Below, in pieces: positions 34,902 through 55,095 of a stretch of 64,000 bases of DNA. The position numbers were made by a program, and so were the translations under genes. The stretch's first letter is position 1. Every line of letters begins with the position of its first letter. Below the pieces are notes generated by a model that ran no database searches, was not told where the DNA came from, and worked only from the letters and a program-made list of their open reading frames with translations. This DNA is from Gammaproteobacteria bacterium (lineage in GTDB: Bacteria; Pseudomonadota; Gammaproteobacteria; Eutrophobiales; Eutrophobiaceae). Where the stretch lies: the NCBI GenBank assembly GCA_016193395.1, contig JACPSH010000047.1, positions 1 through 64,000 on the forward strand, written 5' to 3'.

Positions 34902-36281
34902 ATGTATTACGAATACTTCGGGCTGAAACAGCCGCCGTTCCGGATCACCCCGGACACGACCCTGTTTTTCCCCGGCGGCAACCGCGGGCCGATCCTCGAG
35001 GCGCTCGTGTACGCGATCCTGAACGGCGAGGGGATTGTCAAGGTCGTGGGCGAAGTGGGGAGCGGCAAGACCATGCTCTGCCGGATGCTGGAGAAGGAGC
35101 TTCCGGGGCACGTCGAGATCGTCTATCTCGCCAACCCCAGCCTGTCGCCGGAGAACATTCTGCACGCGATCGCCTTCGAGCTGAAACTGCCGGTGCAGCC
35201 GGTCACGTCGCGGCTGCAGGTCATGCAGGACCTGCAGAACTACCTGCTCGAACGTCATGCCGGGAACCGGCAGGTCCTGGTGTTCGTGGAAGAAGCGCAG
35301 GGCATGCCCATCGCCACGCTCGAGCAGATCCGCCTGCTGAGCAACCTCGAAACCCAGCAGCACAAGCTCCTGCAACTGGTCCTGTTCGGGCAGCCGGAAC
35401 TCGACGTCCGCATGGCGCGCCCGGAGATCCGCCAGCTCAAGGAGCGCATCACCTACAGTTTTCACCTCAATCCATTCGCCGTGGACGATATCCGCGACTA
35501 TCTGAATTCGCGCCTGCGTGCCTGCGGCTTCCGCGGCGCGGAGGTCTTCACGCCGGCCGCGGTGCGCGCCATTGCGCGTCATTCGAACGGGCTCGTCCGG
35601 CGCATCAACATCCTGGCCGACAAGTCGCTGCTGGCTGCCTACGCGGACAATATGCACGAAGTTTCGGCGCGCCACGTCCGCCGCGCGGCATCCGACAGCG
35701 AATTCGCCTCCGGCCGCCACTACGTGTTCCCAACCCTGATAGGCGCTCTGGTCCTCACCCTGGCGGTTGGCATTCTGTGGTGGATCAACCGGACACCACC
35801 GAAGGAACCCGTCGCGGCACTCACGCCAACCCCGTCGGCTTCGGTTGAAGCGCGACCGGCGCCGGGGGCGGTTGTCACGGAGCGGGCGGCCGAGGAACCG
35901 GCAACCATTCCGTCGCCGGTACCCGACGCGGCCGTCGCCGCAAACCCGGAATCCCCTGTTCTGCAGCATGGTTCCGCGAGCGAGCGTTCAGAGGCTTTCC
36001 AACCTCAAGACACCCCCGTGCTCCCAGCGCCGGAAACAGCTGTGACGGAGCAGGCTTCCCCTGCGGGCGAGGTCCAGCTGCTCGGCATGAACGCCGTGTT
36101 CCGCGTACAGGACTTCGGCGACTCGAGGCTTTCGCCCGAAGAATCCGACTTGCTTCAGAAGCAGCTCGCGGCGGTGCCGCCCGAGGAGGCGATCCCTGAA
36201 GGCCTGTCGCCAACTGGTGACGTGTGCAGACTTTGCTGGTCCATTATCTATAGACCCCTGAAAAGCCCAGAAAATCTTTAA
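34902..36281 (+). CDS. mshM: MshM/ExeA-like AAA ATPase
   Basis: 459 residues. The start MYYEYFGLKQPPFRITPD is the ExeA/MshM hallmark. Walker A is VVGEVGSGKTMLC (about residue 48), Walker B VLVFVEEAQGM (about 125), and a sensor region follows (QLVLFGQPELD). One transmembrane helix lies at about 275-292 (FPTLIGALVLTLAVGILWW), then a proline/alanine-rich periplasmic part. The last 20 residues (GDVCRLCWSIIYRPL...) look unlike the family and may reflect a frameshift or a private tail. It follows the regulator after 7 bases. Confidence 0.85.
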   Translation: MYYEYFGLKQPPFRITPDTTLFFPGGNRGPILEALVYAILNGEGIVKVVGEVGSGKTMLCRMLEKELPGHVEIVYLANPSLSPENILHAIAFELKLPVQPVTSRLQVMQDLQNYLLERHAGNRQVLVFVEEAQGMPIATLEQIRLLSNLETQQHKLLQLVLFGQPELDVRMARPEIRQLKERITYSFHLNPFAVDDIRDYLNSRLRACGFRGAEVFTPAAVRAIARHSNGLVRRINILADKSLLAAYADNMHEVSARHVRRAASDSEFASGRHYVFPTLIGALVLTLAVGILWWINRTPPKEPVAALTPTPSASVEARPAPGAVVTERAAEEPATIPSPVPDAAVAANPESPVLQHGSASERSEAFQPQDTPVLPAPETAVTEQASPAGEVQLLGMNAVFRVQDFGDSRLSPEESDLLQKQLAAVPPEEAIPEGLSPTGDVCRLCWSIIYRPLKSPENL

Positions 36282-36375: not shown

Positions 36376-38007
36376 ATGTCCATGCGAAGAGTCTTCATCG
36401 TTCTGTTTGCCGGCCTGGTCTGCGCCGGCTGCGAACAGCTTGAGCCGAAGCCTTTCGAGCCGTCGCCCGGCCACATCAGCGCCGATGAGCCCGTGGCCGG
36501 GCAGCCGCAGATCCCAGAACTGGTGCAGCAGGCGCCCGAACTGCCGGAGCCGGGCACGCCCGAGGAGCAGGAGAAGTACACGGTGGTCGTGCATGAAGTG
36601 CCGGTCAACGAAATCCTGTTTGCCCTGGCGCGCGACGCGAAGATCAACGTTGACATCGATCCACGCGTGGCGGGCGTGGTCACCCTGAACGCCGTGGACC
36701 AGAACCTGACGCAGCTCCTCGAACGCATCTCCCGGCAGGTGCCGATCCGCTACGAGATGAGCGACGGCAATCTGTTCATCATGCCGGACGAGCCGTACTT
36801 CCAGACCTACAAGATCAATTACGTCAATATGGCGCGGGATTCCGAAATCAAGGTGAAAATCGACACGCAGGTGTCGTCCGCCGGCGGGGGTGGCGGCGCG
36901 CCGGCGGGAGCCGGCGGCGGCAGCAGTTCGAGCACGGAAGTGGCCAGCGTATCCAACAACCGCTTCTGGAATTCGCTGGTCGCCAATGTACAGGCGATAC
37001 TCAGCCAGGAAGAAGGCGGAGCGGCCGGCGGCGGTGCCGCGGGCGCGGGTGGCGGTGAACTGCCGGTGACGGAGAACGTCATCCCGCATGCGGAATCCGG
37101 ACTGCTCACGGTCAAGGCGACCGCAAGCCAGCACAAAATGATCCAGGAATTGATCGACAACACTATCGCCGCCGCGCACAGGCAGGTCCTCATCCAGGCG
37201 ACGATTGTGGAGGTCAACCTCAACAAGGACTACCAGGCGGGAATCGACTGGTCGTTCCTGAGCGAACAAGGGAAGGCGGGTTTCAACTTCACTTCGCTGG
37301 CGACCAGCGCCGCGGCCGGCATCGTGCCATTGGGAACGCCCTTGTCGTTTGTGCTGAGCTACGTCGACCCGAATACCGGCAGGGACCGCATCAATGCGAC
37401 CGTTCGGTTGCTGGAACAGTTCGGCAATGTGAACGTGCTTTCCAGCCCCCAGATCATGGCGCTCAATAATCAGACGGCGGTACTGAAGGTGGTGGACAAC
37501 GAAGTCTATTTCAGCGTCAACGTCGAGAGTGAAACCACCCAGACGGGTATCGTGGCGAAGACCATCGAAACCGAGATCCACACCGTGCCGGTGGGCATCG
37601 TCCTCAGCGTCACGCCGCAGGTGAACGAGAACGATTCGATTATCCTCCAGGTGCGCCCGACGGTTTCGCGGGTGCGGGAGTTCGTCAACGATCCGAACCC
37701 GGAGCTGGACGAGGACACGCCGAACCCGGTGCCGGTTATCCAGACGCGCGAAATGGAATCCGTTCTGAGGATGAACAATGGCCAGATCGCCGTCCTAGGT
37801 GGTCTGATGGAGGATCGGGAAAGCTACACGGATACGTCGGTTCCGGGGTTGTCCAGGCTTCCCGTGGTGGGAGATGCCTTCAAGACCCGCGTCCGGGATC
37901 ACGCGAAGTCCGAACTCGTGGTCTTCCTGAGACCGGTCGTCATCCGCAACCCCAGCCTCGAGGCCGACCTGGGCCAGTACAAGACGTTCCTCCAGCGCCG
38001 TCAGTGA
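36376..38007 (+). CDS. mshL: MSHA-type pilus secretin
   Basis: Outer-membrane secretin through which the pilus passes. The signal peptide is lipoprotein-like (VLFAGLVCAGC, Cys about 20). An N0/STN-like domain follows (about 65-140: VVHEVPVNEILFALARDAK), then N-domains split by a Gly/Ala/Ser-rich loop (165-225). The secretin core runs 270-530 with ATIVEVNLNKDYQAGIDWS and MNNGQIAVLGGLMEDR. Length is 543 residues. Upstream, 36304-36309 reads TATAAT, but the -35 match is weak. Confidence 0.92.
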   Translation: MSMRRVFIVLFAGLVCAGCEQLEPKPFEPSPGHISADEPVAGQPQIPELVQQAPELPEPGTPEEQEKYTVVVHEVPVNEILFALARDAKINVDIDPRVAGVVTLNAVDQNLTQLLERISRQVPIRYEMSDGNLFIMPDEPYFQTYKINYVNMARDSEIKVKIDTQVSSAGGGGGAPAGAGGGSSSSTEVASVSNNRFWNSLVANVQAILSQEEGGAAGGGAAGAGGGELPVTENVIPHAESGLLTVKATASQHKMIQELIDNTIAAAHRQVLIQATIVEVNLNKDYQAGIDWSFLSEQGKAGFNFTSLATSAAAGIVPLGTPLSFVLSYVDPNTGRDRINATVRLLEQFGNVNVLSSPQIMALNNQTAVLKVVDNEVYFSVNVESETTQTGIVAKTIETEIHTVPVGIVLSVTPQVNENDSIILQVRPTVSRVREFVNDPNPELDEDTPNPVPVIQTREMESVLRMNNGQIAVLGGLMEDRESYTDTSVPGLSRLPVVGDAFKTRVRDHAKSELVVFLRPVVIRNPSLEADLGQYKTFLQRRQ

Positions 38008-38039: not shown

Positions 38040-39746
38040 TTGAGTCTATTGATGGACGCCTTGAAAAAGGCGGAGCAGGAAAAGAAGGAATCCGCGAAGC
38101 GTCTGGAACAGGCGACGGAACTTGCGCGGCTGGAACGCACCGGCGAGCAGCAGGCGGACATCACCTCCGAACACGCGGTCGCCTCCAGGCCCGAAGCCCC
38201 TGCCGCGGAAGACTCTCCGCTGTCCCTCGAAGCGCTATCGCCGGACCCCGTTGCGTCGCCGTCGGAACCCGCGGCGACGCCCTTGCGGGACACATCGCCC
38301 CCGCTCCGTTCGCGGGACCTCGAGCTGGCTGCCTTCAACATGGAGATGGCGACGATGGTGCCCGGCGACAATGCGGGTGACAAGACGGAAGTGCGCGGAA
38401 CTCCCCTCCCGGCGACAGCGAAAGCCCCGGCGGCAGAGGACATGGATCAGACGTTTCACGGTATCGAGCTCCCCGACGCGCCGCAGTCCGGCATGTACGA
38501 GGAAACGGTCCAGGGCGAGCAGTTCGATGCGGGCGAACCGGTCAAGGCCTATGAGGAGACCCTGCCTGGTGTGCCGGCCGTCCAGTTCGCGAAGGACATC
38601 GGCGGCAAGGATCAGCCGACACCGGTGGCCGCGCAGACGGTATTTACGGCCGGTGAGGTGGGCCGGCAGGCGGATTCGGCGTGGCTGAAGTGGGCGTATA
38701 TCGGTTTGCCCCTCGTCGCAGTCATTGCAGGAGGTATCTGGTATTACTATGCCGTCACGCCGGTCAGGCGGGCATTACCCTCGCCCTGGGTGGCCCGCGG
38801 CATTGAAACCGTCGTGCCCGGCCCGGCCGTGCCTGTGCCGTCGGCGGAATCGGCCGGCGCCGGCGCGGTCGCCCCTCCGGCAGCGACGGTGCTCGCACCG
38901 GAGACAGCGGCAACGGAAGTTCCCATGCCTATGGAACCAGGAGCAGGCGCGGCCCCGGCCGGAGCCGCGGCGCCCACGCCAGCGGCAATTCTGGAATCCG
39001 CGTCAGCGGCGACAGAGCCCGTGCCCGGCGCAGCGGTCGCTGCCGTGCCGGTGGAAACCGGAGAAGACGAGGAACAGGAATCCGCCATTGAGGAACGACC
39101 GGCCCAGCCGGCGTTCGGTTCACCGCCCTCCCTGGTGAAAATCACCCGCGGCAAGAAACCGAGCGACGAGGGACTGCTGATCCGGCAGGCCTATTCCGAC
39201 TATAACTCCGGCAACCTCGAGGCCGCGAAAAACGGCTACCTGGCCGCATTGTCCCGCCTGCCGGATAACGTGGACGTCCTGCTGGGCCTCGGCGCGATTG
39301 CCCTGAAGGAAGCCGATCTGACGCGCGCTCTCGAGGCGTACACGAAAGTGTTGAATCTGGATCCGCGCAACGAGACGGCGCTCGCGGCCCTGATCGGCCT
39401 GCAGAAAGACAGCGACCTGCAGGCGAGCGAAAGCGCGCTCAGGACCCTGCTGCTCGACAATCCGGACAATCCGTACCTGTACTTCACGCTCGGCACGGTA
39501 TATGCCGCCCAGCAGCGCTGGGCCGAGGCGCAACTGGCCTTTTTCGATGCCTACCGCAACGATTCGGTGAATCCGGATTACGCGCTCAATCTTGCGGTCA
39601 GCCTCGACCGCCTGGGGCAGTACGACACGGCGCTCGATTACTACAACGTTGCGCTCAAGCTCGCCGATGATCGCAGGGCCGGGTTCGATCCCTCCGTGGT
39701 TCTCGCGCGCATCCAGGCGCTGTCCGCGCCGCAGGTTACGCCGTGA
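38040..39746 (+). CDS. mshN: MshN-like TPR protein of pilus assembly
   Basis: 568 residues starting at TTG behind GGAGG (MSLLMDALKKAEQEKKES). Order: a cytoplasmic N-terminus; an acidic low-complexity stretch; a transmembrane helix at about 222-240 (WAYIGLPLVAVIAGGIWYY); a Pro/Ala-rich linker to about 365; then four or more TPR units (375-560), for example AYSDYNSGNLEAAKNGYLAAL. This layout matches MshN-like proteins encoded between the secretin and MshE; it probably links secretin and inner-membrane complex. It overlaps the ATPase gene by 4 bases. Confidence 0.78.
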   Translation: MSLLMDALKKAEQEKKESAKRLEQATELARLERTGEQQADITSEHAVASRPEAPAAEDSPLSLEALSPDPVASPSEPAATPLRDTSPPLRSRDLELAAFNMEMATMVPGDNAGDKTEVRGTPLPATAKAPAAEDMDQTFHGIELPDAPQSGMYEETVQGEQFDAGEPVKAYEETLPGVPAVQFAKDIGGKDQPTPVAAQTVFTAGEVGRQADSAWLKWAYIGLPLVAVIAGGIWYYYAVTPVRRALPSPWVARGIETVVPGPAVPVPSAESAGAGAVAPPAATVLAPETAATEVPMPMEPGAGAAPAGAAAPTPAAILESASAATEPVPGAAVAAVPVETGEDEEQESAIEERPAQPAFGSPPSLVKITRGKKPSDEGLLIRQAYSDYNSGNLEAAKNGYLAALSRLPDNVDVLLGLGAIALKEADLTRALEAYTKVLNLDPRNETALAALIGLQKDSDLQASESALRTLLLDNPDNPYLYFTLGTVYAAQQRWAEAQLAFFDAYRNDSVNPDYALNLAVSLDRLGQYDTALDYYNVALKLADDRRAGFDPSVVLARIQALSAPQVTP

Positions 39747-41458
39747 CCGGCCCGCACAAGAAATACCTGCGCCTGGGAGAGATCCTGGTTCAGAAGGGCG
39801 TGACCACGCCCGACCAGATCGACATCGCCCTCACCGAGCAGAAGCGCACGCGCGAGCACCTCGGCAAGATCCTGGTGCGCCTGGGATTCGCGACCGAGGC
39901 GATCATCCGCGATGTCATCGGCGGCGTCATCGGCCAGGAAAGCGTCGACCTGACGCGCGCGGTGGTCGACGCCGACGCCATCGGCCGCATCCCCAAGGAC
40001 ACGGCGCGACGGCTCAAGGTGCTGCCCCTCACATTTGACGCCAATTCCAATACCCTTACCGTGGCGATGGCCGACACCTTCGACGTCGTCGCGCTCGACC
40101 AGTTGAATGCCCTGCTCGGCGGCGCGACCGACCTGTCGCCGGTGCTGGCCGGCGAGGCGGAGATCGAGAAGGCGATCGACCAGTTCTACGGGTTCGAGCT
40201 GTCCGTGGACGGCATTCTGCGTGAAATTGAAACCGGGGAGATTGATTACCAGAGCCTGGACGCCGGCACCGACGAGTACAGCCAGCCGGTGGTGCGCCTG
40301 GTGAATGCGCTGATGTCAGACGCCGTGAAACGCGGCGCGTCAGACATCCATTTCGAGCCGGAAGAAGGATTTCTGCGCTTCCGTTACCGCATCGACGGCG
40401 TGTTGAGGCAGATCCGCAGCCTGCACAAGAATTACTGGTCCGCGATCGCGGTGCGCCTGAAGGTGATGGCCGGCATGGACATCGCCGAGACGCGCGCGCC
40501 GCAGGACGGCCGCATTTCACTCGCGCTGTCCGGCCGCCAGGTGGATTTCCGCGTCTCCACGCTGCCGACGGTGCACGGCGAGAACATCGTCCTGCGCGTG
40601 CTCGACCGGCAGAAGGGCATCGTTTCGCTGGAAGAACTGGGGCTCAAGTCCGACGAGCTGACTTTGCTGAAACTCATGGTGGGGCGTCCGGAGGGCATCA
40701 TCCTCGTGACCGGCCCGACCGGCAGCGGCAAGACGACCACGCTGTATTCGATCCTCAATTACCTCAACACCGAATCCGTGAACATCATGACGCTCGAGGA
40801 CCCGGTGGAATACCCGACGACCATGATCCGACAGACCTCGGCGCAGGAGACCTCGCGTCTCGATTTCGCGAGCGGCATCCGCTCGATGATGCGCCAGGAT
40901 CCGGACATCATCCTCGTCGGCGAAATCCGCGATGAGGATACCGCGAGCATGGCGTTCCGCGCCGCGATGACCGGCCACCAGGTGTTCTCGACGCTGCACA
41001 CGAATTCGGCGCTGGGCGCCATCCCGCGCCTGCTGGACATCGGCGTCTCGCCGGATATCGTCGCCGGAAACATCATCGGCATCGTCGCGCAGCGGCTGGT
41101 GCGCAAACTCTGCGCGGACTGCAAGCACCCGCACGAAATGTCCGACCTGGAACGCAACCTGCTGGGACTCAAGGCCACGGACCGGCACCAGATCATCTAC
41201 GGCCCGCACGGCTGCCCGAAGTGCGACAACCAGGGCTACAAGGGCCGGATCGCGGTCATGGAAGTCCTGAAATTCGACCCCGACCTGGACGAACTGCTGG
41301 CGCGCAGGGGGACTTCGCGGGAACTGTTGAGAATGGCGCTGTCGAAGGGCTTCAGGCCGCTCGCGGACGTCGGCACGCAGCGCGTGCTGGAAGGCTCGAC
41401 GAGCCTCGAGGAAATCTCGCGCGTGGTCGACCTTACTTCGAGGCTCAAGCAGAAATAA
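39743..41458 (+). CDS. mshE: Pilus assembly ATPase, MshE/PilB type
   Basis: Hexameric traffic ATPase that powers pilus extension. The N-terminal MshEN domain (about 8-100) has RLGEILVQKGVTTPDQIDIA followed by ALTEQ and a second LGKILVRLGF repeat, the motif type that binds c-di-GMP in MshE. The GspE domain has Walker A GPTGSGKTTT (about 330), Asp box and Walker B IILVGEIRDEDTA, and a tetracysteine zinc site (CADC...CPKC). Length is 571 residues. It starts at GTG overlapping the TPR gene stop. Confidence 0.93.
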   Translation: MTGPHKKYLRLGEILVQKGVTTPDQIDIALTEQKRTREHLGKILVRLGFATEAIIRDVIGGVIGQESVDLTRAVVDADAIGRIPKDTARRLKVLPLTFDANSNTLTVAMADTFDVVALDQLNALLGGATDLSPVLAGEAEIEKAIDQFYGFELSVDGILREIETGEIDYQSLDAGTDEYSQPVVRLVNALMSDAVKRGASDIHFEPEEGFLRFRYRIDGVLRQIRSLHKNYWSAIAVRLKVMAGMDIAETRAPQDGRISLALSGRQVDFRVSTLPTVHGENIVLRVLDRQKGIVSLEELGLKSDELTLLKLMVGRPEGIILVTGPTGSGKTTTLYSILNYLNTESVNIMTLEDPVEYPTTMIRQTSAQETSRLDFASGIRSMMRQDPDIILVGEIRDEDTASMAFRAAMTGHQVFSTLHTNSALGAIPRLLDIGVSPDIVAGNIIGIVAQRLVRKLCADCKHPHEMSDLERNLLGLKATDRHQIIYGPHGCPKCDNQGYKGRIAVMEVLKFDPDLDELLARRGTSRELLRMALSKGFRPLADVGTQRVLEGSTSLEEISRVVDLTSRLKQK

Positions 41459-41464
41459 AACGGC

Positions 41465-42670
41465 ATGGATTTTTTCCGGTACAAGGCGATTGACCAGTTC
41501 GGGCGCGTGCAGATCGGCCAGGCCGATGCCATCAACATGGCGGATCTGGAGATGCGCCTGCGCAAGATGGGGCTCGACCTAGTCAACTGCAAGGAACTGA
41601 AGTCCGCGGGCAAGAGCGTCTCCGGCCGCGGCGTCAAGCGGCGCGACCTGATCCTGATCTGTTTCCACATGGAGCAGACTTCGCGCGCCGGCGTGCCGAT
41701 GCTCGACAGCCTGCAGGACCTGCGCGACAGCACGGACAACCCACGCCTGCGCGAAGTCATTTCCGCCATGGGCGAGTCCATCGAGGGTGGCAAGACCCTG
41801 TCGCAGACCATGACGGACTTCCCGGGCGTGTTCGACAAGGTATTTGCCAACCTGGTGCGCGCCGGCGAGCAGTCGGGCGAACTGAGCGAGGTGTTCCGGC
41901 GCCTGGGTGAGAGCCTGAAGTGGCAGGACGAGCAGGCCTCGCAGGCGCGCAAGCTGATCATGTACCCGGCGTTCGTCGGTTCGGTCGTGGCCGGCGTCCT
42001 GTTTTTCCTGATGATCTACCTGGTGCCTGAGTTGCTCGCCTTCGTCAAGACCATGGGCAAGGAGCTGCCGGCGCACACGAAGGTCCTGATTTTCGTTTCC
42101 AACATTTTTGTCCACTACTGGTATCTGATCCTGATCCTGCCGGTGGTGGTCGTCGGCGGGGCAATGGTCATGGTCAATGTCAGTCCCCTGATGCGGCTGC
42201 GCTACGACACCCTGAAGCTCAACCTGCCCGTGCTCGGCCCGATCGTGAAGAAGATCATCCTGGCGCGGCTCGCCGGCTTTTTCGCGATGATGTATTCCTC
42301 CGGCATCACCATCATCGATTGCATCCGCACCGGCGAGGACATTGCCGGGAACAAGGCCATCGAGAACGCGGTGCGCAACGTCGGCCAGCAGATCGCGGAC
42401 GGCAAGAACCTGAGCGACAGTTTCGAATCGACCGGCCTGTTCCCGCCCCTGGTGCTGCGCATGATCCGCGTCGGCGAGAATACCGGGGCGCTGGAACAGT
42501 CGCTGGAGAACGTCTCCTATTTCTACACGCGCGACGTGCGTGAATCGATCGAACGGCTCCAGGCCATGATCGAACCCACCATGACGATCATCCTGGGGGC
42601 TATCGTCGGCTGGGTCATGTTCTCCATACTCGGGCCAATCTATGATCTCATCTCTACTATCAAGATTTGA
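41465..42670 (+). CDS. mshG: Pilus platform protein, MshG/PilC (GspF) type
   Basis: Inner-membrane platform protein that couples the ATPase to pilin polymerisation. It opens MDFFRYKAIDQFGRVQIGQA. Two GspF domains (about 65-190 and 270-390) each carry the family pattern, the second with FFAMMYSSGITIIDCI. Three transmembrane segments lie near 170-190, 215-235 and 375-398. Length is 401 residues. It starts 6 bases after the ATPase stop and overlaps the next gene by 29 bases. Confidence 0.93.
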   Translation: MDFFRYKAIDQFGRVQIGQADAINMADLEMRLRKMGLDLVNCKELKSAGKSVSGRGVKRRDLILICFHMEQTSRAGVPMLDSLQDLRDSTDNPRLREVISAMGESIEGGKTLSQTMTDFPGVFDKVFANLVRAGEQSGELSEVFRRLGESLKWQDEQASQARKLIMYPAFVGSVVAGVLFFLMIYLVPELLAFVKTMGKELPAHTKVLIFVSNIFVHYWYLILILPVVVVGGAMVMVNVSPLMRLRYDTLKLNLPVLGPIVKKIILARLAGFFAMMYSSGITIIDCIRTGEDIAGNKAIENAVRNVGQQIADGKNLSDSFESTGLFPPLVLRMIRVGENTGALEQSLENVSYFYTRDVRESIERLQAMIEPTMTIILGAIVGWVMFSILGPIYDLISTIKI

Positions 42671-44252
42671 GCTCGCGCGCCCCCGTGCGTTGTTCCTCGG
42701 CGCCCAGAAGGCCGCGGTCTATCACTGGCGCAAGGGCGACCTGGGCACGTCCTTCCTGTTCGACGCCAACGACGAGGGACGCGAATATTTCGCCCGTTAT
42801 CTCAAGGAGACGCCCAACACGCCGATGTACGTTCTGGTCGACGTGTTCGAGGAGGAATTCCGCCGCGACACGATCCCACACGTCTTCGGCCCGGATCGCA
42901 CGGCCATCCTCGGCCGCAAGAAAAGCCGGCTGTTCCGCGATACCCCGTATTTTCATTATTTCCTGCAGGGACGCGAGCAGGAGGGGCGCCGCGACGATCG
43001 GGTGCTGTTGACCTCGATCACGAATCCGAACCTGGTCCGGCCCTGGGTCAAGCTGCTGGACGAGCATCAGATCCCGCTCGCCGGGGTGTATTCCGTCCCG
43101 CTGTTCACCAAGTCAGTGCTGAAGCTGCTCTCCAAGCCGGGGGACCACATGCTGGTGATCAGCCTGCAGAGCATCAGCGGGCTGCGCCAGACTTTCATCC
43201 ACAAGGGCGATCTGCGCATCAGCCGCCTCGTGCAGATGCCGCGCTACGGCACGGAGCCCTACGGTCCCCACATCCGCCAGGAAGTGGACAAGATTCGCCG
43301 CTACCTGAACAACATGCGGCTGACCACCGTCGACGATCCGGTCGATATCTACCTGTTGCTGGGCGGCGAGTTGCTCGACGAGATGCGCAGGCACTACACG
43401 GATTCGGGTCTGAACCGGTACCACATTCTGGATCTCAACGAACTCATGCAGGCGGCCGGTTCGGAACGCCGGGTGTCCACGCCGTTCAGCGACCAGTTTT
43501 TCGTCCACGAGCTGCTGAAGCAGCGTCCATCCAATTTGTACGCCACAGGCTCGGAGCGCCGTTATTTCACCATGCGCCGGCTGCGGCATTCCATGCACGC
43601 AGCGAGCGCGCTGCTGCTGCTGGGTGGCGCGGCCTGGGGCGGATACAATTTTATGGATGGCCTCAGCTACAAGCAGCGCAGTCTCGCGGATGTCCAGAAG
43701 ACGCAGTTCTACACCGCGCGTTACCAGATGGCGCGCGAGCGCCTGCCGCAAACGCCGGTAGAGCCGGCGGACATCCAGGTCGCCGTCGAACTGGCGGACG
43801 TTTTGAACCAGTACAAGACCACCCCGCTCGACATGATGAAAGTGATCAGCGCCGCGTTGCAGGGTGAGCCTTCGGTGCAGATTGACGATCTGCAGTGGGT
43901 AGCGAGCTTCAACCCGGACGTCGAGCTGGGCAAGGAGGGGGGCGTGAAGCCGGGGCAGGCGGCACTCGCCGCGCCCATCGCCGTGTCCGGCCAGCCGGCT
44001 TACAAGTTCTACCAGGTCGCACAGATGAGCGGCCGGCTGGATCCGTTCGACGGCAACTTCCGCAATGCCATCACGACCATCAACAATTTTGCGGAATCGC
44101 TGCGCGCAATGAAATCCGTGTACGACGTCAAGATCGTGTCGTTGCCGCTGGACGTCAGTTCCACCGCGAACCTCCAGGGCAACGTGCAAGCGCAGCAGAG
44201 CGAAGCCCGGTTCATCGTCAAGCTGGTCATCGGTATCGGCCATGAAGCGTGA
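42642..44252 (+). CDS. PilM/PilN-like (MshI-like) pilus assembly protein
   Basis: 536 residues. A large cytoplasmic N-terminal domain (1-315) occupies the PilM/MshI position; the only transmembrane helix is at about 322-342 (HAASALLLLGGAAWGGYNF); the periplasmic remainder resembles PilN. The size suggests a PilM-like and PilN-like fusion, but PilM ATP-binding motifs are not obvious. It lies between the platform gene and a PilO-like gene, the usual pilMNOP order. Assignment rests mainly on topology and context. Confidence 0.65.
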   Translation: MISSLLSRFELARPRALFLGAQKAAVYHWRKGDLGTSFLFDANDEGREYFARYLKETPNTPMYVLVDVFEEEFRRDTIPHVFGPDRTAILGRKKSRLFRDTPYFHYFLQGREQEGRRDDRVLLTSITNPNLVRPWVKLLDEHQIPLAGVYSVPLFTKSVLKLLSKPGDHMLVISLQSISGLRQTFIHKGDLRISRLVQMPRYGTEPYGPHIRQEVDKIRRYLNNMRLTTVDDPVDIYLLLGGELLDEMRRHYTDSGLNRYHILDLNELMQAAGSERRVSTPFSDQFFVHELLKQRPSNLYATGSERRYFTMRRLRHSMHAASALLLLGGAAWGGYNFMDGLSYKQRSLADVQKTQFYTARYQMARERLPQTPVEPADIQVAVELADVLNQYKTTPLDMMKVISAALQGEPSVQIDDLQWVASFNPDVELGKEGGVKPGQAALAAPIAVSGQPAYKFYQVAQMSGRLDPFDGNFRNAITTINNFAESLRAMKSVYDVKIVSLPLDVSSTANLQGNVQAQQSEARFIVKLVIGIGHEA

Positions 44253-44862
44253 AGATCTGGACTGGCCGGTGCTTACCGGCGCCCTGGTCACCCTGCTGGT
44301 CAGTATCGTCGTCAGCGGGCTGCTGATCGGCGGCAGTTACTATTTCCAGAAGCAGATGCTGCTTGAGTTCACGCGAAACAACGCGCAGTTCCAGGCCATC
44401 AGCCAGCGCTACCTGGCGGTGGACGAGGAGGAGAAGCTGATCCGGAAGTTCTATCCGCGTTTCATCGAGCTATACAACAACGGCGTCATCGGCAAGGAGC
44501 AGCGACTGAACTGGCTCGAGATCCTGCGGGATTCCGGGGAGAAGATCCGCGTGCCGGGCCTGAGCTACGAGATCAAGTCGCAGGAAGTCTACGCGCCGCA
44601 GTTCTCGGCTCAACTCGGCCGCTACCAGCTGTTCAACAGCAGGATGGCGCTGAACATGCAGTTGCTGCACGAGGGAGATCTGCTCAGCCTGTTCAGTATG
44701 CTCGACAGCCGGGCCGCCGGCACCTACAGCGTCTCGGAATGCAGGTTCTCCAGGGCCTCGACAGCGATCGACCTGAATCCGAGGAAGGGCAATATCATGA
44801 CGAAGTGCGACCTCAATTGGTTCACCATCAAGCTGGCCGATGGAAAAGACATCAAGGTTTAA
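44242..44862 (+). CDS. PilO/MshJ-like inner-membrane protein
   Basis: 206 residues: a short cytoplasmic N-terminus (MKREDLDWPVLTGALV), one membrane helix (about 10-30: TLLVSIVVSGLLIGGSYYF), a coiled coil with EFTRNNAQFQAISQRYLAV, then a small periplasmic domain with C-terminal Cys residues. Topology and place after the PilM/N-like gene match PilO/MshJ. It overlaps both neighbours by about 10 and 23 bases, so the block is tightly co-translated. Confidence 0.7.
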   Translation: MKREDLDWPVLTGALVTLLVSIVVSGLLIGGSYYFQKQMLLEFTRNNAQFQAISQRYLAVDEEEKLIRKFYPRFIELYNNGVIGKEQRLNWLEILRDSGEKIRVPGLSYEIKSQEVYAPQFSAQLGRYQLFNSRMALNMQLLHEGDLLSLFSMLDSRAAGTYSVSECRFSRASTAIDLNPRKGNIMTKCDLNWFTIKLADGKDIKV

Positions 44863-45412
44863 CCTGCTGCCCGCCCCGCGCGGCGCCTTGCTCGCTGCGG
44901 GGGCGGCATTGATCCTGCTCGGCACCCTGAATTGCGCCGGGGCCGCCGAGCCGCTGGGAAGGTTGTTCACCTCGCCGCAGCAGCGCAAGCAGCTTGATGA
45001 TCTGCGCGATGCGATTCCCGAGGGCGAGCAGATCGTCGCCCCGGAATTTCGGTCCGTGGAACCCGACGCGTCCGCGGTGCCCGAAGCGGCATCGGGCAGC
45101 GCGATCACCGTCAAGGGGCTCGTCCGGCGCGGCGAAGGCCGGAGCATGGCGTGGATCAACGACAGTAACACCTACGAAGGCGACCTGGCCTCGCAATACC
45201 TGCGGATTGACAGCAACGATATACAGTCCGGCGGCGTACGGATCAGCGTCCCCGACCAGGAGCGGCCGATCAACGTCAAAGTCGGCGAAAGCTACAACCC
45301 CGCCAGCGGACAGGTCGCCGATCTGGCCGCGGCAGAGGACGGGGCGGCTGCCGCGGAATCCCCCGTCCCGGCGGTTCCGCAGCCGGCTGCCGGCATCCCC
45401 GCGCCGCGATAG
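44840..45412 (+). CDS. PilP/MshK-like periplasmic pilus protein
   Basis: 190 residues with a signal peptide (LLAAGAALILLGTLNCAGA, cleavage near 36). GRLFTSPQQRKQLDDLR is a phrase common in MshK-like proteins. A small beta domain follows, with VKGLVRRGEGRSMAWIND and GVRISVPD, related to the PilP/GspC homology region, then an Ala/Pro-rich tail. It presumably connects the inner-membrane complex to the secretin. Confidence 0.65.
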   Translation: MEKTSRFNLLPAPRGALLAAGAALILLGTLNCAGAAEPLGRLFTSPQQRKQLDDLRDAIPEGEQIVAPEFRSVEPDASAVPEAASGSAITVKGLVRRGEGRSMAWINDSNTYEGDLASQYLRIDSNDIQSGGVRISVPDQERPINVKVGESYNPASGQVADLAAAEDGAAAAESPVPAVPQPAAGIPAPR

Positions 45413-45437: not shown

Positions 45438-48400
45438 ATGCGCGAATCCCCGTCATTCCGCCGCTTGAACGCGGCTGCCCGCGGCCAGCGGGGCGCGGTG
45501 CTGCTCGTGTTCATGCTGGTACTGGTCGTCGGTTCCTCCTACATGCTCGTTTCCAGGCTGAACGAATACGCGCAAGCCTATGCGCGGGAGGCGCAGACTC
45601 AGTCCGCCCTGGCGGAGGCCAAGCAGGCCCTGCTGTTCTACGCGATGAATTACCCGGATTTAAACACTGGTCTCAGTACGATTCGTGGGCCCGGCTATCT
45701 GCCGTGTCCGGATCAGAACGATGATGGGGCTACCGAGACGAATTGCTCGGATACAACGGGGAGCACGCTCGGTCGTTTGCCGTACTCGACCCTTGGACTG
45801 TCGGAATTGACAGACAGCAGCGGGGAGATGTTGTGGTACGCGGTCTCGCAGAACCTCAAGTACAACCAGTCCAGCGACTACATACTGAACAGCGATACGC
45901 CCGGGACGATCAGCGTCGACGGAAGTGACGACGTGGTGGCGGTCATCATCGCGCCGGGCGAGCCGGTTGCGGACCAGAGCGGCAGGCGCGGGACCGCGGA
46001 GACCACGGCCCTGCTGGAAAGGGATGTCTATGACGTAGCGGATCAATACCTCGAGGATGACAACGCGACCAACGGGGATGCGAGCTATGTCTCGGAGTCC
46101 TCGGACGATTTCAACGATCAGGTCGTCACCATTACACGGCAGGAGCTGATGGCGGTGGTCGAGCAGCGGGTCGCGAACGAAGCGCGCCAGGCGCTCGGCA
46201 ATTATTACGATGAGATGCTGGCTCTTAGTACTGAAAACCCACAAAGGGGCGCCTATCCGTGGCTGGCGCCATTCGCCGATCCGAAATCAAGCCCCTTCGT
46301 GCTGCGGGGCACGCACGACGGCTCGGACGACTCGACCAATGACCTCGACGATTCCTCGAGGGATTTCACGCAGTGGGGTGTTGCAATTGGCGATACCGTG
46401 TGGAATCTCACTGATGGCTCAGTAGGAGTGGTGGATACAACTCCTACCGCGACGCGTCTGTCGATGAGCGGCGGCCTCGCGCTGGGGACAGACAACGACT
46501 TTGACGACGGTGACGAGTATGTAGTGGAGGCCAAGGCTCTCGCAGGAGCCCATGCCGGGACGGCCACCGCCGGCTCCGACAACCTGGCTCTGGAGGACAC
46601 CGCCAGGGATTTCGAGGAGCAAGGGGTCAGCGCGGGCGACGTGGTGGAGAACATCACGGATGGATCCAGCGGCATCGTGGCCTCGGTCGATTCGGACACA
46701 CTGACCGTCAGTTCACTTGCGGGCGGTGCGGAAAACGACTTCGACCTGAACGATAGCTACCGCGTCCGGACCAATGCCGGCCAGGCGACCGCGGGAAGCA
46801 GCGGGACCACGCTGGAAGACACGGATGCGGATTTCACGGTGATGGGCGTGCAGGAGGGAGACCTGGTACATAACCTGACCGACAACTCCTATGGCCGCGT
46901 GGCATCGGGAGGCGTAGCGGCGACGACGCTGACCGTCGACAGCCTCGAGTTCGGGACCGGCAATCAATTCAGCACGAACGACTACTACGAGATCCCGCGC
47001 TTCTACGGTTCCGCCAATACGCCCCGGGGCCTGCTCTCCATCCACGAACCCGGGGAAGCCTTCGCGACTGGATTCGATGTCGACTGGTCGACGCCTTCGG
47101 TGTCCCCGATTACCGTCACGACCACTGCTTCGGGCACCAACACGACCTACAACAACGGCCTCTATTACTGGTTGCTGGGATCGTCAGGATATTCAGGGAC
47201 CGTGCAGGTGCCGGATTCAGGCGGCGCATGCACCTGGATCACAGAGGAGATAGCTGATTGCCGCGGAGAGTATGTCGATTCGAATTTCCTCACGGGCGCA
47301 GTCACTTCGACCTTCACCTCCAGTCCGTACATCTACGTCTACGACACCTCGAAAAACTTCCCCTCCAGCGGCGTGAAGGTCGGTGACCGGATCCTGAACA
47401 TCACGACCAACGTCGCCGGGATCATTTCCGTGGCCAGCACGACTTACCCAACCCGGGTCCGGGTGACGAGCATCACGGGAGAAACGGCGTTCAGCGCTTC
47501 CGTCGGGGATTCTTTCCGCATCTACGTCGCGGCCAACCGCTCACCCGCCTCCGGCGCGTCCCCCAGTACACATACCGCAAACGCCTCTACCGATACCGCC
47601 GCGAATCTGGTGTGCGTGGACGCAGTCGATTTCACGTCAAATCCAGCCGTGGAACCGGGTGATGTTATACGCGATACCTCCGACGCCACCTATGGTCTGG
47701 TCATGGCGACGAGCTGGGACGGCACCATGGGCTGCATTACCTACACCGACATGATAGGCGGCGGGTCAAGCACCATCGGGATCGGGGACTATTTCCGCAT
47801 CTCCTACGACTTCGTAAGCGAGCGGCACTACCTATTCGACGTACGGATCAGCGGGACCACGAGCAACGGCGGTTCCGCCATCGGCAACAATGCGGGCATG
47901 CGTGACCGGGATGTCTGCCTGGGGTACGGGGCGGATTGCACGAATTCAACCGCGTCCAACGCGGAGTTCGACGCCGGGAATTCGGCGACCATCACCATAG
48001 AGGACTATGACTCGGCTGCAACGCTTCTCGGCTCAAGAACCGTGACTGCGCCATCCAGCGGTTCGCCGGTGGCGAGCATCCGCCTGGACGGCATCGATTA
48101 CTACCTGGAGGAAACGGAAGACGCCATCCCGGAATGGTTCCTTAAGAACAAATGGCACCGTTTCGTCTACGCGGCCTATAGCAGTGAATACCAGCCGGGC
48201 AATGTCGGAACCGGCTGCGTTGAAGGAACAAACTGTCTCTCCCTGTCAGTGCCGCTGCCGGCCGACACGACCCTGGATGACCGCCAGGCTCTCGTGATCT
48301 CCGCCGGACCGGAGCTGTCCACGCAGGCCAGCAGCCGCCTCAACGGCGCGCTGGATGCCTATTTTGAGGACGATAACGCCGTGGCTGATGACGTGTTCAG

Positions 48401-48455
48401 CAGAGACGAGGTCAGCACGACCTTCAATGACCTGATCAGCGTGATTGCGCCCTGA
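45438..48455 (+). CDS. Giant modular tip pseudopilin (PilX/GspK-like N-terminus)
   Basis: 1005 residues from MRESPSFRRLNAAARGQ; the ORF's first 148 codons read through the PilP-like gene out of frame. Prepilin-like segment RGAVLLVFMLVLVVGSSYML lacks Glu at position 5, as in tip-initiating GspK/PilX proteins. A pseudopilin body follows (GYLPCPDQNDDG, GRLPYSTLGL, GEMLWYAVS). From about residue 300 come repeats of the form DF-x-GV-x-x-GD-x-V-x-N-x-TDGS-x-G-x-V at about 303, 385, 460, 634 and 727. The C-terminal 150 residues resume a pilin-like fold. Likely a surface adhesin at the pilus tip. Confidence 0.75.
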   Translation: MRESPSFRRLNAAARGQRGAVLLVFMLVLVVGSSYMLVSRLNEYAQAYAREAQTQSALAEAKQALLFYAMNYPDLNTGLSTIRGPGYLPCPDQNDDGATETNCSDTTGSTLGRLPYSTLGLSELTDSSGEMLWYAVSQNLKYNQSSDYILNSDTPGTISVDGSDDVVAVIIAPGEPVADQSGRRGTAETTALLERDVYDVADQYLEDDNATNGDASYVSESSDDFNDQVVTITRQELMAVVEQRVANEARQALGNYYDEMLALSTENPQRGAYPWLAPFADPKSSPFVLRGTHDGSDDSTNDLDDSSRDFTQWGVAIGDTVWNLTDGSVGVVDTTPTATRLSMSGGLALGTDNDFDDGDEYVVEAKALAGAHAGTATAGSDNLALEDTARDFEEQGVSAGDVVENITDGSSGIVASVDSDTLTVSSLAGGAENDFDLNDSYRVRTNAGQATAGSSGTTLEDTDADFTVMGVQEGDLVHNLTDNSYGRVASGGVAATTLTVDSLEFGTGNQFSTNDYYEIPRFYGSANTPRGLLSIHEPGEAFATGFDVDWSTPSVSPITVTTTASGTNTTYNNGLYYWLLGSSGYSGTVQVPDSGGACTWITEEIADCRGEYVDSNFLTGAVTSTFTSSPYIYVYDTSKNFPSSGVKVGDRILNITTNVAGIISVASTTYPTRVRVTSITGETAFSASVGDSFRIYVAANRSPASGASPSTHTANASTDTAANLVCVDAVDFTSNPAVEPGDVIRDTSDATYGLVMATSWDGTMGCITYTDMIGGGSSTIGIGDYFRISYDFVSERHYLFDVRISGTTSNGGSAIGNNAGMRDRDVCLGYGADCTNSTASNAEFDAGNSATITIEDYDSAATLLGSRTVTAPSSGSPVASIRLDGIDYYLEETEDAIPEWFLKNKWHRFVYAAYSSEYQPGNVGTGCVEGTNCLSLSVPLPADTTLDDRQALVISAGPELSTQASSRLNGALDAYFEDDNAVADDVFSRDEVSTTFNDLISVIAP

Positions 48456-48465
48456 GAATGCCGCA

Positions 48466-49200
48466 ATGCGGATGACCCCGAATCGGCTGCGCGGTTTCTC
48501 GCTGGTCGAGCTGGCGATGGTGCTGTTCATCATTTCGCTGCTTCTCGGCGGTCTGCTCGTGCCGCTGGCCTCGCAACTGGAGGCCCGGCAACGAAATGCC
48601 GCATTGGAACAGCTCGATCTCATAAAGGAGGCGCTCATCGGCTTCGCGATCATCAATGGCAGGCTGCCCTGCTATACGTCAGAAACGGATCCCACCAATG
48701 CATACTATGGCATCGAAGACACGGAAGATCCGGGGAAGACCTGTAACCCGACCGGCCTCACCAGCGACGGAATACTGCCGTGGAAAACGCTGGGAATGGC
48801 CAGCGGCCTGGACCCCTGGGGGATCGAGCGTACCGCCGCTGCGGATCCATGGATTGGCTACTGGCGCTACCGGGTCGACACGACATTCGAGAGCACGTCT
48901 CCGCTGTTTGCGCTCACGGATCAGTCTGGCGAGATGAGCATATGCGATTCAAACGACGTGTTGCTCATATCGACGTCCGAACGTCCTGTCGCGGTCATCT
49001 ATTCGACGGGGGCGGATCAGACGGCCGATGGTCAGAATGCCTCCTACGAAGCAATTCTCACGCCTAGTTCGATCTGCATCACGCCTACCGGGCCGACCTA
49101 TCAGGGTGGAGAAGTCAGCGGCACTTTCGACGACATCACGGTGTGGCTCACCCGCCCGCTACTGTTCAACCGCTTGGTCACCGCCGGAACGCTGCCCTAA
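48466..49200 (+). CDS. Type IV prepilin-like protein
   Basis: About 244 residues with the peptidase site RG|FSLVELAMVLFIISLLLGG, with Glu5 present. The body has paired cysteines and NGRLPCYTSE, GILPWKTLGM and GYWRYRVD, the same layout as the body of the tip pseudopilin upstream. It starts at ATG 48466 (MRMTPNRLRG), 10 bases after the tip gene; the ORF's TTG start overlaps that gene. Probably a minor pilin partnering the tip protein. Confidence 0.85.
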   Translation: MRMTPNRLRGFSLVELAMVLFIISLLLGGLLVPLASQLEARQRNAALEQLDLIKEALIGFAIINGRLPCYTSETDPTNAYYGIEDTEDPGKTCNPTGLTSDGILPWKTLGMASGLDPWGIERTAAADPWIGYWRYRVDTTFESTSPLFALTDQSGEMSICDSNDVLLISTSERPVAVIYSTGADQTADGQNASYEAILTPSSICITPTGPTYQGGEVSGTFDDITVWLTRPLLFNRLVTAGTLP

Positions 49201-49255: not shown

Positions 49256-50974
49256 TCAACCGGCCGGCGCAGAGGCGGCCGCGCTTGCCGCGGGCGCGGC
49301 GATGCGGTTGCTGAGTTCGAAGCAAACCCGGCCGTCCACGTTCGCCGAAAGGAAAAGCGCGAAGCCCAGCGACTCGGCAAGCCGCGCCACCTGGTACAGT
49401 CCGACGCCCAGGCCGCTGTCTGACGGCAGTGGTTCGTGGAACAACAGCCGCGCCTTCTCCTCCGCCAGGTGCGTCCCGTTATCGCAGATGGAAAGCTGGA
49501 TCAGGCTGCCGTCGCTGTAGAGCGCGACGGTCACCGCGAGTCCGGGCTCGATTTGCGCCTTGTCTTTCACGTTCTCCAGCAAATTTTCGACCACACTGTC
49601 GAACAGGTCCGCGGGAACGGTCGGGTCGCCCGCAATGTCCGACTGGAACCGGGTGGTGCCGCGGCCGCTGCGATTCTGCAGGTCGCGCCACCAATCCTTG
49701 AGGTACACCTCCTCGTACCGGATCACCGCCGGGTCCTGGAGCTTGTCGAGCGCCAGTTGCAGCCGTTGCGTGAGATGGGGCAATTGCCGGCGCAGGAGTT
49801 TCTGCGACACGGATTCGCCGCCGGCCTCCTCCTGCTGGATGATGCTGGTGATCGCCTGGAGCGACTGGAGGAGGTTCTTGATGTCGTGCGTGATCCGCGC
49901 ACCCGTTTCGTAGATGGCCTGCAAGTGAGTACGCTTGGTCAATTCGCGCTGGTGGAGCCGGGCGACGTAGAAATCATCGACGAGGTGCAGCAGCAGCTTG
50001 CAGTGCAGAAACAACGCCCCGCCCAGGGGGGCATGCGTAAAGATCCGGGCAGTCAACCGTTCCATCCGGAATTCGGTGGCGTGTGGTGTGCGGCTTCCGT
50101 GTTCGCCCTGCGATCCCTCCGCCGTCCATGTCACGCCCGCGATCCAGGCGTGGCCGGTCAACTCCTCCATCGCGGAATCCAGGAATTCGTCGGGCGAGGT
50201 GCGTTGCCGGAACAGAACCGACAGCTCGTTCAACCACCGCTCGAAGGGCGTGCCGATGTTGAGAATGGAACGCAACCACAATTGCGACAGGCCGCTGAAG
50301 CGCATGCGCGGCGTCAGCAGCCAGCTGATGGCAAACAGAAACACGCCGATCGCCAGCAGCGTATGCACCAGAGCCAGCAGGTAATCGACGTGGTTGCGGT
50401 ACATGTTGATCAGGCTGCCGATGATGAGCAGCGTCACCAGCGTTGCGGCGGCGATGGCCTGCAGAATGTCGACGGAATGAAGGGCGCGCGCGTCCGATGG
50501 CGCCGACAGCAGGACGACGATGACCGGCATGATCGGGAGCAGCACGCCGAACACGTCGCGGATGTTGCGCGGCAGCGGGATGTCGAACAGTTCCGTAGTA
50601 CAGGCGATCAGCAGTTCGGAAGTCAGGAACGCGAGCACCAGCATGGACAATCCACGCTCCCGGCGGCTGACCGCGACGCGTCCGCCGCAGAACCCGACCA
50701 GCAGGATGAGCCACGCGTACAGCAGCCACCAGTTCATCCAGGTGACGAACGCGAGGGTGAGAAGGATGAAGGCCGTGCCGTTATACCAGGCGAGTTTCTC
50801 GTCGCTGCGCCATACCGGTTGCCAGATGAGGAACAGGCCGAATTGAATCAACATCAGGGACCGCGATGACAGGCTGCCGAAGTCGAACCAGATGGCGCCA
50901 TGCAGGAACTCGAGCATGAGCGCGAGAATGACCGACTCCCGCCGCGCCGCCAGAAATGCAGGGATGCGCTTCAC
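49256..50974 (-). CDS. Membrane sensor histidine kinase (PrsK-like)
   Basis: 572 residues. Seven or eight transmembrane segments occupy about 12-235, a GAF-like region 255-350, then a kinase core with the H-box ARITHDIKNLLQSLQ (about 375), N-box VVENLLENVKDK and G-box DSGLGVGLYQVARLAE. The HDIKN form of the H-box and the multi-TM plus GAF layout recall PrsK. It is the only orphan kinase in the pilus locus and is the likely partner of the sigma54 regulator at 33.4 kb. It is encoded opposite the pilus genes. Confidence 0.85.
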   Translation of the reverse strand: MKRIPAFLAARRESVILALMLEFLHGAIWFDFGSLSSRSLMLIQFGLFLIWQPVWRSDEKLAWYNGTAFILLTLAFVTWMNWWLLYAWLILLVGFCGGRVAVSRRERGLSMLVLAFLTSELLIACTTELFDIPLPRNIRDVFGVLLPIMPVIVVLLSAPSDARALHSVDILQAIAAATLVTLLIIGSLINMYRNHVDYLLALVHTLLAIGVFLFAISWLLTPRMRFSGLSQLWLRSILNIGTPFERWLNELSVLFRQRTSPDEFLDSAMEELTGHAWIAGVTWTAEGSQGEHGSRTPHATEFRMERLTARIFTHAPLGGALFLHCKLLLHLVDDFYVARLHQRELTKRTHLQAIYETGARITHDIKNLLQSLQAITSIIQQEEAGGESVSQKLLRRQLPHLTQRLQLALDKLQDPAVIRYEEVYLKDWWRDLQNRSGRGTTRFQSDIAGDPTVPADLFDSVVENLLENVKDKAQIEPGLAVTVALYSDGSLIQLSICDNGTHLAEEKARLLFHEPLPSDSGLGVGLYQVARLAESLGFALFLSANVDGRVCFELSNRIAAPAASAAASAPAG

Positions 50975-54309: not shown

Positions 54310-55095
54310 ATGATTTCGCGTATAGAGAAAGGCTTCACCCTGGTTGAAATCGCCATCGTGCTGGTGGTTATCGGGCTCCTGCTTGGCGGGATCCTGAAGG
54401 GCCAGCAGCTCATCAACAGCGCCCGCGTGCGCAACCTGGCGGACCAGAATTCCGGCGTCCAGGCGGCCTACTACGGGTTCATCGATCGGTTCCGCAACGT
54501 ACCGGGCGACATGGATCCGACGAATGCCTGTACGCAGGTCGGCACCGGTGTCGATAGAGGCGGTACCTGTGCCACGCCGGCCAACGCCCCGGGCGGCGAC
54601 GCCAATGGACGGATCGATACAATTGCCGAAGCCGGCGCCGTCTGGCCGCACATGTCGGCGGCGGGTTTCCTGACCGGGACGTATTCCGGCCAGTCCGCCG
54701 GCACCACCCTCCTGACGGCCGCCACCTATCCGAATGCCGTTGCGCTGGGCGCCGTGCCGCCGAATGCATTCCAGGGGCCGATTCTTCTGGCGCACTCGAC
54801 CGACTATGTACAAGGCGCGCAAAACTCCCGCGCGACAATTGTCCGCCTCTCCTATTCCTTCGGCGGCAATATTCCCGTGCCCATCCTCAGGGATCTGGAC
54901 CAGAAACTGGACGACGGTATTGCGGGAAGTGGTGTGGTGGTTTCGGCCGCGGAGGCCGCTTCAGGAACTCAGGGTACCTTTGGCGCGGTCACGGATTTCA
55001 CGGCTGGCACCAGCAACTGTCTCAATACGGCCAATCCGGCCACGTGGAACGTGGACAGCTCGAACCAGACCTGTAACGGCATATTTCTTTATTGA
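54310..55095 (+). CDS. Type IV prepilin, probable major pilin
   Basis: 261 residues. A 7-residue leader MISRIEKG precedes FTLVEIAIVLVVIGLLLGGIL, a classic type III prepilin cleavage site with Glu5. The mature part begins with KGQQLINSARVRNL. Two cysteines near the C-terminus (SNCLNTANPATW and QTCNGIFLY) would form the D-loop disulfide. It stands alone with its own sigma54 promoter, AGGAC before the ATG, and a strong terminator, all fitting a highly expressed structural pilin. Confidence 0.88.
   Translation: MISRIEKGFTLVEIAIVLVVIGLLLGGILKGQQLINSARVRNLADQNSGVQAAYYGFIDRFRNVPGDMDPTNACTQVGTGVDRGGTCATPANAPGGDANGRIDTIAEAGAVWPHMSAAGFLTGTYSGQSAGTTLLTAATYPNAVALGAVPPNAFQGPILLAHSTDYVQGAQNSRATIVRLSYSFGGNIPVPILRDLDQKLDDGIAGSGVVVSAAEAASGTQGTFGAVTDFTAGTSNCLNTANPATWNVDSSNQTCNGIFLY

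Follow-up and report, generated by a model that had tools for sequence, protein, structure and literature searches.

A two-lobed prepilin with variable numbers of inserted barrel modules, encoded in a putative MSHA-type operon of a gammaproteobacterium

The analysed window comprises 64,000 nucleotides of a gammaproteobacterial contig. The following genes were found in this order:

34902..36281, forward strand: MshM-like AAA ATPase (PF13401; TIGR03015 below cut-off)
36376..38007, forward strand: MshL secretin (TIGR02519 pilus_MshL, 264.3 bits, cut-off 250.2)
38040..39746, forward strand: MshN-like TPR protein (TPR families and place in the operon)
39743..41458, forward strand: MshE-type assembly ATPase with c-di-GMP-binding N-domain (NF053729, 57.9 bits, cut-off 38)
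41465..42670, forward strand: MshG-like platform protein (GspF/PilC-type matches, below equivalog cut-offs)
42642..45412, forward strand: three MshI/J/K-like assembly genes at 42642-44252, 44242-44862 and 44840-45412 (order and conservation in relatives)
45438..48455, forward strand: P0001, a two-lobed modular prepilin of 1005 aa (open frame; orthologues between MshK-like and pilin genes at about 33 loci)
48445..49200, forward strand: pil2, the adjacent single-lobe pilin with Glu5 (PF07963 above cut-off; conserved neighbour)

The names MshI, MshJ and MshK follow position and size, not family match, and the MshN-specific model did not match the TPR protein. The order from the MshM-, MshL-, MshN-, MshE-, MshG- and MshI/J/K-like genes to P0001 and the pilin with Glu5 is kept in about 33 loci, including those whose P0001 orthologue has no modules. 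With the MshL secretin and the c-di-GMP domain of the MshE-type ATPase both above curated cut-offs, the operon can be assigned by sequence to the MSHA type. It thereby resembles the machinery of Vibrio MSHA, but differs from it by its own two-lobed pilin accompanied by one or two other pilins. Another Glu5 pilin, pil54 (54310-55095), is located a few kb downstream, and in many relatives a pilin occupies roughly the same place behind the operon. The flanking genes (33413-34894 and 49256-50974) are a response regulator of the sigma-54 type and an opposite-strand ORF which by eye resembles a sensor histidine kinase and had no match in NCBIfam.

The open frame of P0001 confirmed the 1005-residue ORF of the preliminary description. 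It was divided as follows, all on the forward strand:

45438..45494, forward strand: leader of 19 residues with Gly as the last one, followed by a mature AVLLV start without Glu5 (sequence)
45495..45647, forward strand: long N-terminal helix alpha1, residues 20-70 (AlphaFold2 helix 18-70)
45693..46226, forward strand: pilin lobe A and trailing helix, residues 86-263 (hhalign to the pil2 family)
46323..46526, forward strand: module M1, residues 296-363 (shuffle test and module profile)
46563..46769, forward strand: module M2, residues 376-444 (shuffle test and profile; modelled alone as a beta-barrel)
46785..46994, forward strand: module M3, residues 450-519 (shuffle test and module profile)
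47007..47294, forward strand: middle domain part 1, residues 524-619, with conserved C-x-W...C (alignment with the module-free L031; missing from L064)
47331..47525, forward strand: module M4, residues 632-696, diverged, second insertion site (shuffle test and profile)
47625..47801, forward strand: module M5, residues 730-788, the most diverged (shuffle test against M2, iterated profile and AlphaFold2 strands)
47820..48107, forward strand: middle domain part 2, residues 795-890, beta-rich (AlphaFold2 strands 795-887)
48129..48452, forward strand: pilin lobe B, residues 898-1005, a second copy of lobe A (hhalign of lobe A against lobe B)

The whole protein was modelled by AlphaFold2 with a pLDDT of 81 and a pTM of 0.78. 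A class III signal and a hydrophobic alpha1 helix are present, the N-terminus reading GQRG-AVLLV with the leader ending at Gly. Glu5 is missing, as it is in every aligned homologue. The N_methyl Pfam model did not match P0001, which is expected for a protein without Glu5. The T2SSK (GspK) and PilX models gave no match at E<=1 either. Of the GspK/PilX-like N-terminus described beforehand, the lack of Glu5 thus stood and extends to the homologues, but the family models do not support the name. Searches with the whole protein in Pfam, NCBIfam, PHROGs and PDB returned nothing useful, and searching for similar folds with the complete model yielded long alignments of junk quality only.

Tips of type IV filaments are capped by subunits lacking Glu5 (PMC10191384), and in GspK, a minor pseudopilin of large size, the pilin fold contains an additional domain as an insert (PMC8179133). 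P0001 lacks Glu5 and is large; from these features, and by analogy with GspK and modular pilins (PMC8179133, PMC10191384), it may be placed at the tip. Alternatively, it could be an ordinary minor pilin or part of a secretion pseudopilus, whose modules would lie beneath the outer membrane or be exposed on the shaft. Elsewhere the genome encodes a separate MSHA-like pilin cluster, T4aP-like pilins and a T2SS-like cluster, all named by gene order and resemblance; with these canonical clusters present, the P0001 operon could have a secretion-like role. In addition, no full set of tip-partner minor pilins was seen beside P0001. We nevertheless consider this alternative unlikely, since the long N-terminus without Glu5 fits the known tip-capping class (PMC10191384) and such a bulky subunit would be hard to fit inside a shaft. 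The separate MSHA-like cluster (L171:6916-12565, contig C39 of G000) contains a c-di-GMP-domain ATPase, a platform protein and several pilins, so that the genome holds two MSHA-type systems. It is adjoined by a protein of 899 aa (L171:3092-5791) with GGxGNDTL-type repeats, calcium-binding by resemblance.

Outside the modules, the body of P0001 is, by profile comparisons, a tandem duplication of a pilin head. Lobe A matches the family of the neighbouring Glu5 pilin pil2 (hhalign 99.6%, E 2e-24) and also lobe B, the C-terminal ~110 residues (97.5%, E 8e-12), which together characterize P0001 as a duplicated pilin. Lobe B matches the neighbouring pilin only weakly when compared with it alone (41%, 3e-4). 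In many module-free relatives the lobe A profile likewise matches the C-terminus of the same ORF again. The shortest form is L064, an orthologue of 350 aa that consists of lobe A and lobe B with little in between. Other orthologues of 495-654 aa contain intervening sequence and no modules, and compared with these, P0001 has two added module blocks. The view that modules interrupt the pilin body is thus borne out by module-free orthologues in the same operon slot. Modules are located between or near the two lobes, and L164 and L166 carry modules at a further point, directly ahead of lobe B. In the free-gap alignment of P0001 with module-free relatives, stray residues fall into the gaps, which leaves the exact borders of the insertions approximate. 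The pil2 (48445-49200) family has the signature of lobe A, LPC...LPW.TLG and FDD, which points to a duplication at gene level before the internal one. A relative of 639 aa (G228:C154:24122-25711) has three matches to the pilin-lobe profile in one ORF and may represent a triplicated pilin head.

P0001 contains five module copies of ~70 aa. Pairwise Smith-Waterman scores were compared with 500 shuffles and gave Z values of 19.9 (M1-M2), 24.8 (M2-M3), 13.5 (M1-M3) and 13.5 (M2-M4); with Z up to 25, chance repeats were ruled out. M5 is clear against M2 alone (Z=8.6), with Z of 1.2-4.1 against the other modules. An iterated module profile was seeded with M1-M4, for which the shuffle test is therefore the independent evidence. 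M5 was no seed; it is the weakest copy, found by the iterated profile at E=7e-8, and a profile made without M5 did not recover it at E<=1e-4. Residue numbers of the modules were taken from the module profile and correspond to ORF coordinates minus 169. These results agree with the preliminary description in the number of at least five modules and in the divergence of the last two. Other parts of it held only partly: M1-M3 are in tandem (296-519), but M4 and M5 occupy a second site (632-788) about 100 residues later and do not belong to one array. An exact TDGS, given there as part of the module motif, is present in M1 and M2 but not in M3-M5. The matching DNA repeats shrink to short stretches of 75-76% identity, and Tandem Repeats Finder detected no DNA array in the P0001 gene. 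The relationship of the modules is therefore one at protein level.

A single module, predicted by AlphaFold2 from 42 aligned modules, is compact, all-beta and barrel-like (pLDDT 96.5) with five strands of at least 3 residues, which supports the discrete module fold presumed earlier. The consensus of the 42 copies reads L-x-D...DF...GV..GD.V.N.TDGS.G. Most of the conserved positions look structural (GD, N, the TDGS hairpin, Gly and an aromatic residue). The 42 sequences had no consistent match in Pfam or PHROG, and the module profile reached at best an unrelated PDB sequence at E 0.07. No fold in the PDB was found at E<=0.001; weak likeness (TM about 0.5-0.6) was seen to F1/V1 ATPase subunits, by our reading to their N-terminal barrel, to a phage tail tube and to tailspikes. 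In a library of viral structure predictions, the best match was 1.6e-5 with a TM of 0.80, followed by many probable matches. The module is an unnamed family without Pfam, PHROG or PDB family. No binding domain was recognised in it with Pfam and PDB, and the nearest solved folds, which are weak matches, are not lectins.

Orthologues in the same slot of the MSHA-type operon carry 0 to 8 modules. On a tree of MshE and MshG from 34 loci, presence and absence of modules changed at least 6 times, and three genera (g3, g8 and g18) each have module-bearing and module-free members. Two adjacent modules in a Thiotrichales MAG (L104:6870-7280, JAABTG010000030) are identical in 170 of 180 bases (94%), which marks a fresh tandem duplication. 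Orthologues were found in many independent genomes, which ruled out an assembly artefact, and the idea that the module-free proteins are paralogues was rejected by their position in the same operon slot. Among 369 gammaproteobacterial genomes, the lobe A body occurs in 78 and the module in 9, in 8 of these within this pilin; in the phylum-wide sample, no other genome of 398 has the module. Absence of modules is thus the commoner state among carriers of lobe A, and the modules are probably derived rather than ancestral, with the reservation that parsimony alone does not distinguish gain from loss. Orthology of single modules by position is partly clear only. An expandable modular pilin is well supported by these data: the module number and length compared among homologues are not constant, the repeat relationship is present, and the variable copy number suggested at the outset was found. 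The preliminary description did not include the duplicated core with its two lobes, the presence of at least two insertion sites, the MSHA-type operon around the gene or the occurrence of the module in phage virion proteins.

We lean towards reading P0001 as a minor pilin that belongs to a second MSHA-type system, with inserted modules that are gained and lost, a position at the tip and modules that act as a replaceable contact surface. In this reading, a pilin head was duplicated in tandem to give lobes A and B, and beta-barrel modules of ~70 aa were inserted between and beside them, with copies gained and lost later. Lacking Glu5, P0001 would take the tip position at the start of filament assembly and cap the filament, its lobes and modules exposed to the outside. 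There the modules could bind a surface or glycan, and their number might set reach or avidity. The analysis shows the modules, their predicted fold, the duplicated core, the operon, the varying copy number and the occurrence of the module in virus proteins; tip position, surface display and binding are inferred from it. The pilus is probably equipped with a changeable contact head. By analogy, adhesion appears to be the likeliest role. Against a contact head count the absence of a recognised binding domain and of a GspK/PilX model match, as well as the dispensability of the modules.

The main rival is a spacer function. Several orthologues do without modules, so that assembly does not require them; they could form a rigid stalk of barrels that keeps the lobes or the middle domain at a distance from the filament and has no binding of its own. 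Copy number varies while the module sequence drifts (29 to 56% identity to M2), most of the conserved positions look structural, and module-free orthologues exist, all of which would suit a spacer. We regard it as fairly unlikely, because the modules are inserted at two or three separate sites instead of one stalk, and virion surface proteins that are not stalks contain related modules.

Outside this pilin, the module was mainly found in contigs of tailed viruses and in a few non-pilin bacterial proteins. A scan with a strict motif (6-row module subset with N-x-TDGSSG), whose counts are lower bounds, detected at least 54 confirmed virus loci and at least 12 bacterial loci, 7 of the 12 being this pilin. 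Virus carriers mostly have one module copy each. Among them are a pectate-lyase-fold tailspike (L161), a protein resembling the SU10 adaptor (L116) and one that contains a cement domain (L124), and neighbours of the viral module genes in three contigs include baseplate, head-closure and tailspike proteins. A tblastn search of cultured phages and plasmids with the module consensus returned nothing, so the virus evidence comes from uncultivated IMG/VR contigs. One bacterial carrier is a Nitrospirae protein of 2053 aa (L105:3919-10077) in which multiheme cytochrome motifs occur together with a lectin-like LamG domain and a single module. Besides this pilin, the only gammaproteobacterial module protein of the sample is L167:7163-8941 (G269), by eye phage-derived.

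The excess of virus loci and the virion proteins in which the module occurs could mean that the modules are virion domains of phages that were captured and retained as a decoy or receptor mimic for interaction with phages and not for adhesion. We consider this very improbable: in a poorly resolved tree, the modules of pilins group largely apart from those of viruses, with 5 changes compared with 44 in shuffles. The separate clustering may be compatible with one origin. More tentatively than the contact surface at the pilus tip, it is conceivable that a virion-surface barrel entered the duplicated pilin and radiated there into arrays of 0-8 copies, bacteria and viruses using one pool of contact modules. 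Ig-like domains are common to virion and bacterial surface proteins. The module resembles such promiscuous virion domains in being a small beta-domain that a bacterial surface protein has in common with surface proteins of virions, but in contrast to the known ones it is a small barrel without Pfam or PHROG family.

Modular type IV pilins are known. A survey listed 264 architectures, among them an 860-residue protein with 12 copies of IPR013211, and in PilB of Streptococcus sanguinis a grafted module on the pilin mediates adhesion (PMC8179133). P0001 shares with this class a class III N-terminus, a body homologous to pilins and an extra domain found outside pilus biology. Like PilB and PilC, it is a pilin with an extra domain not specific to pilus biology and likely exposed at the tip. 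In these two, however, a known domain follows one pilin domain at the C-terminus, whereas P0001 has an unnamed barrel inside a duplicated pilin, at two or more sites and with 0-8 copies among orthologues. With GspK/PulK of the T2SS and the T4aP counterpart PilK/PilX it shares the N-terminus without Glu5, but it differs by the absent model match, by beta-barrel inserts instead of an alpha-domain and by its duplicated pilin head. CofB of the T4bP of enterotoxigenic E. coli consists of a pilin followed by beta-rich domains and is proposed to be at the tip (PMC8179133); as a trimeric adapter it has a beta-repeat and a beta-sandwich domain, one of each, and no variable module array, and no sequence match turned up among PDB chains. 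Modular pilins as such, including the 12-copy case, are thus known already. What is new is that modules are inserted inside a duplicated pilin, that their number varies from 0 to 8 among orthologues at one operon position, and that the module, which has no name, is shared with phage virions. An earlier description was not found in a limited search of the open-access literature.

Most of the known pilins with grafted domains have a single named domain added at the C-terminus. The orthologues described here are closely related, share one operon slot and have anything from 0 to 8 whole modules; they form natural pairs with and without modules, which allow tests of how a pilus gains and tunes a contact head. 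As the module lacks a named family and occurs in the context of phage tailspikes and adaptors, a solved module would provide annotation for bacterial and phage proteins alike. The duplicated pilin body, present in many module-free gammaproteobacteria, is itself an unannotated pilin architecture.
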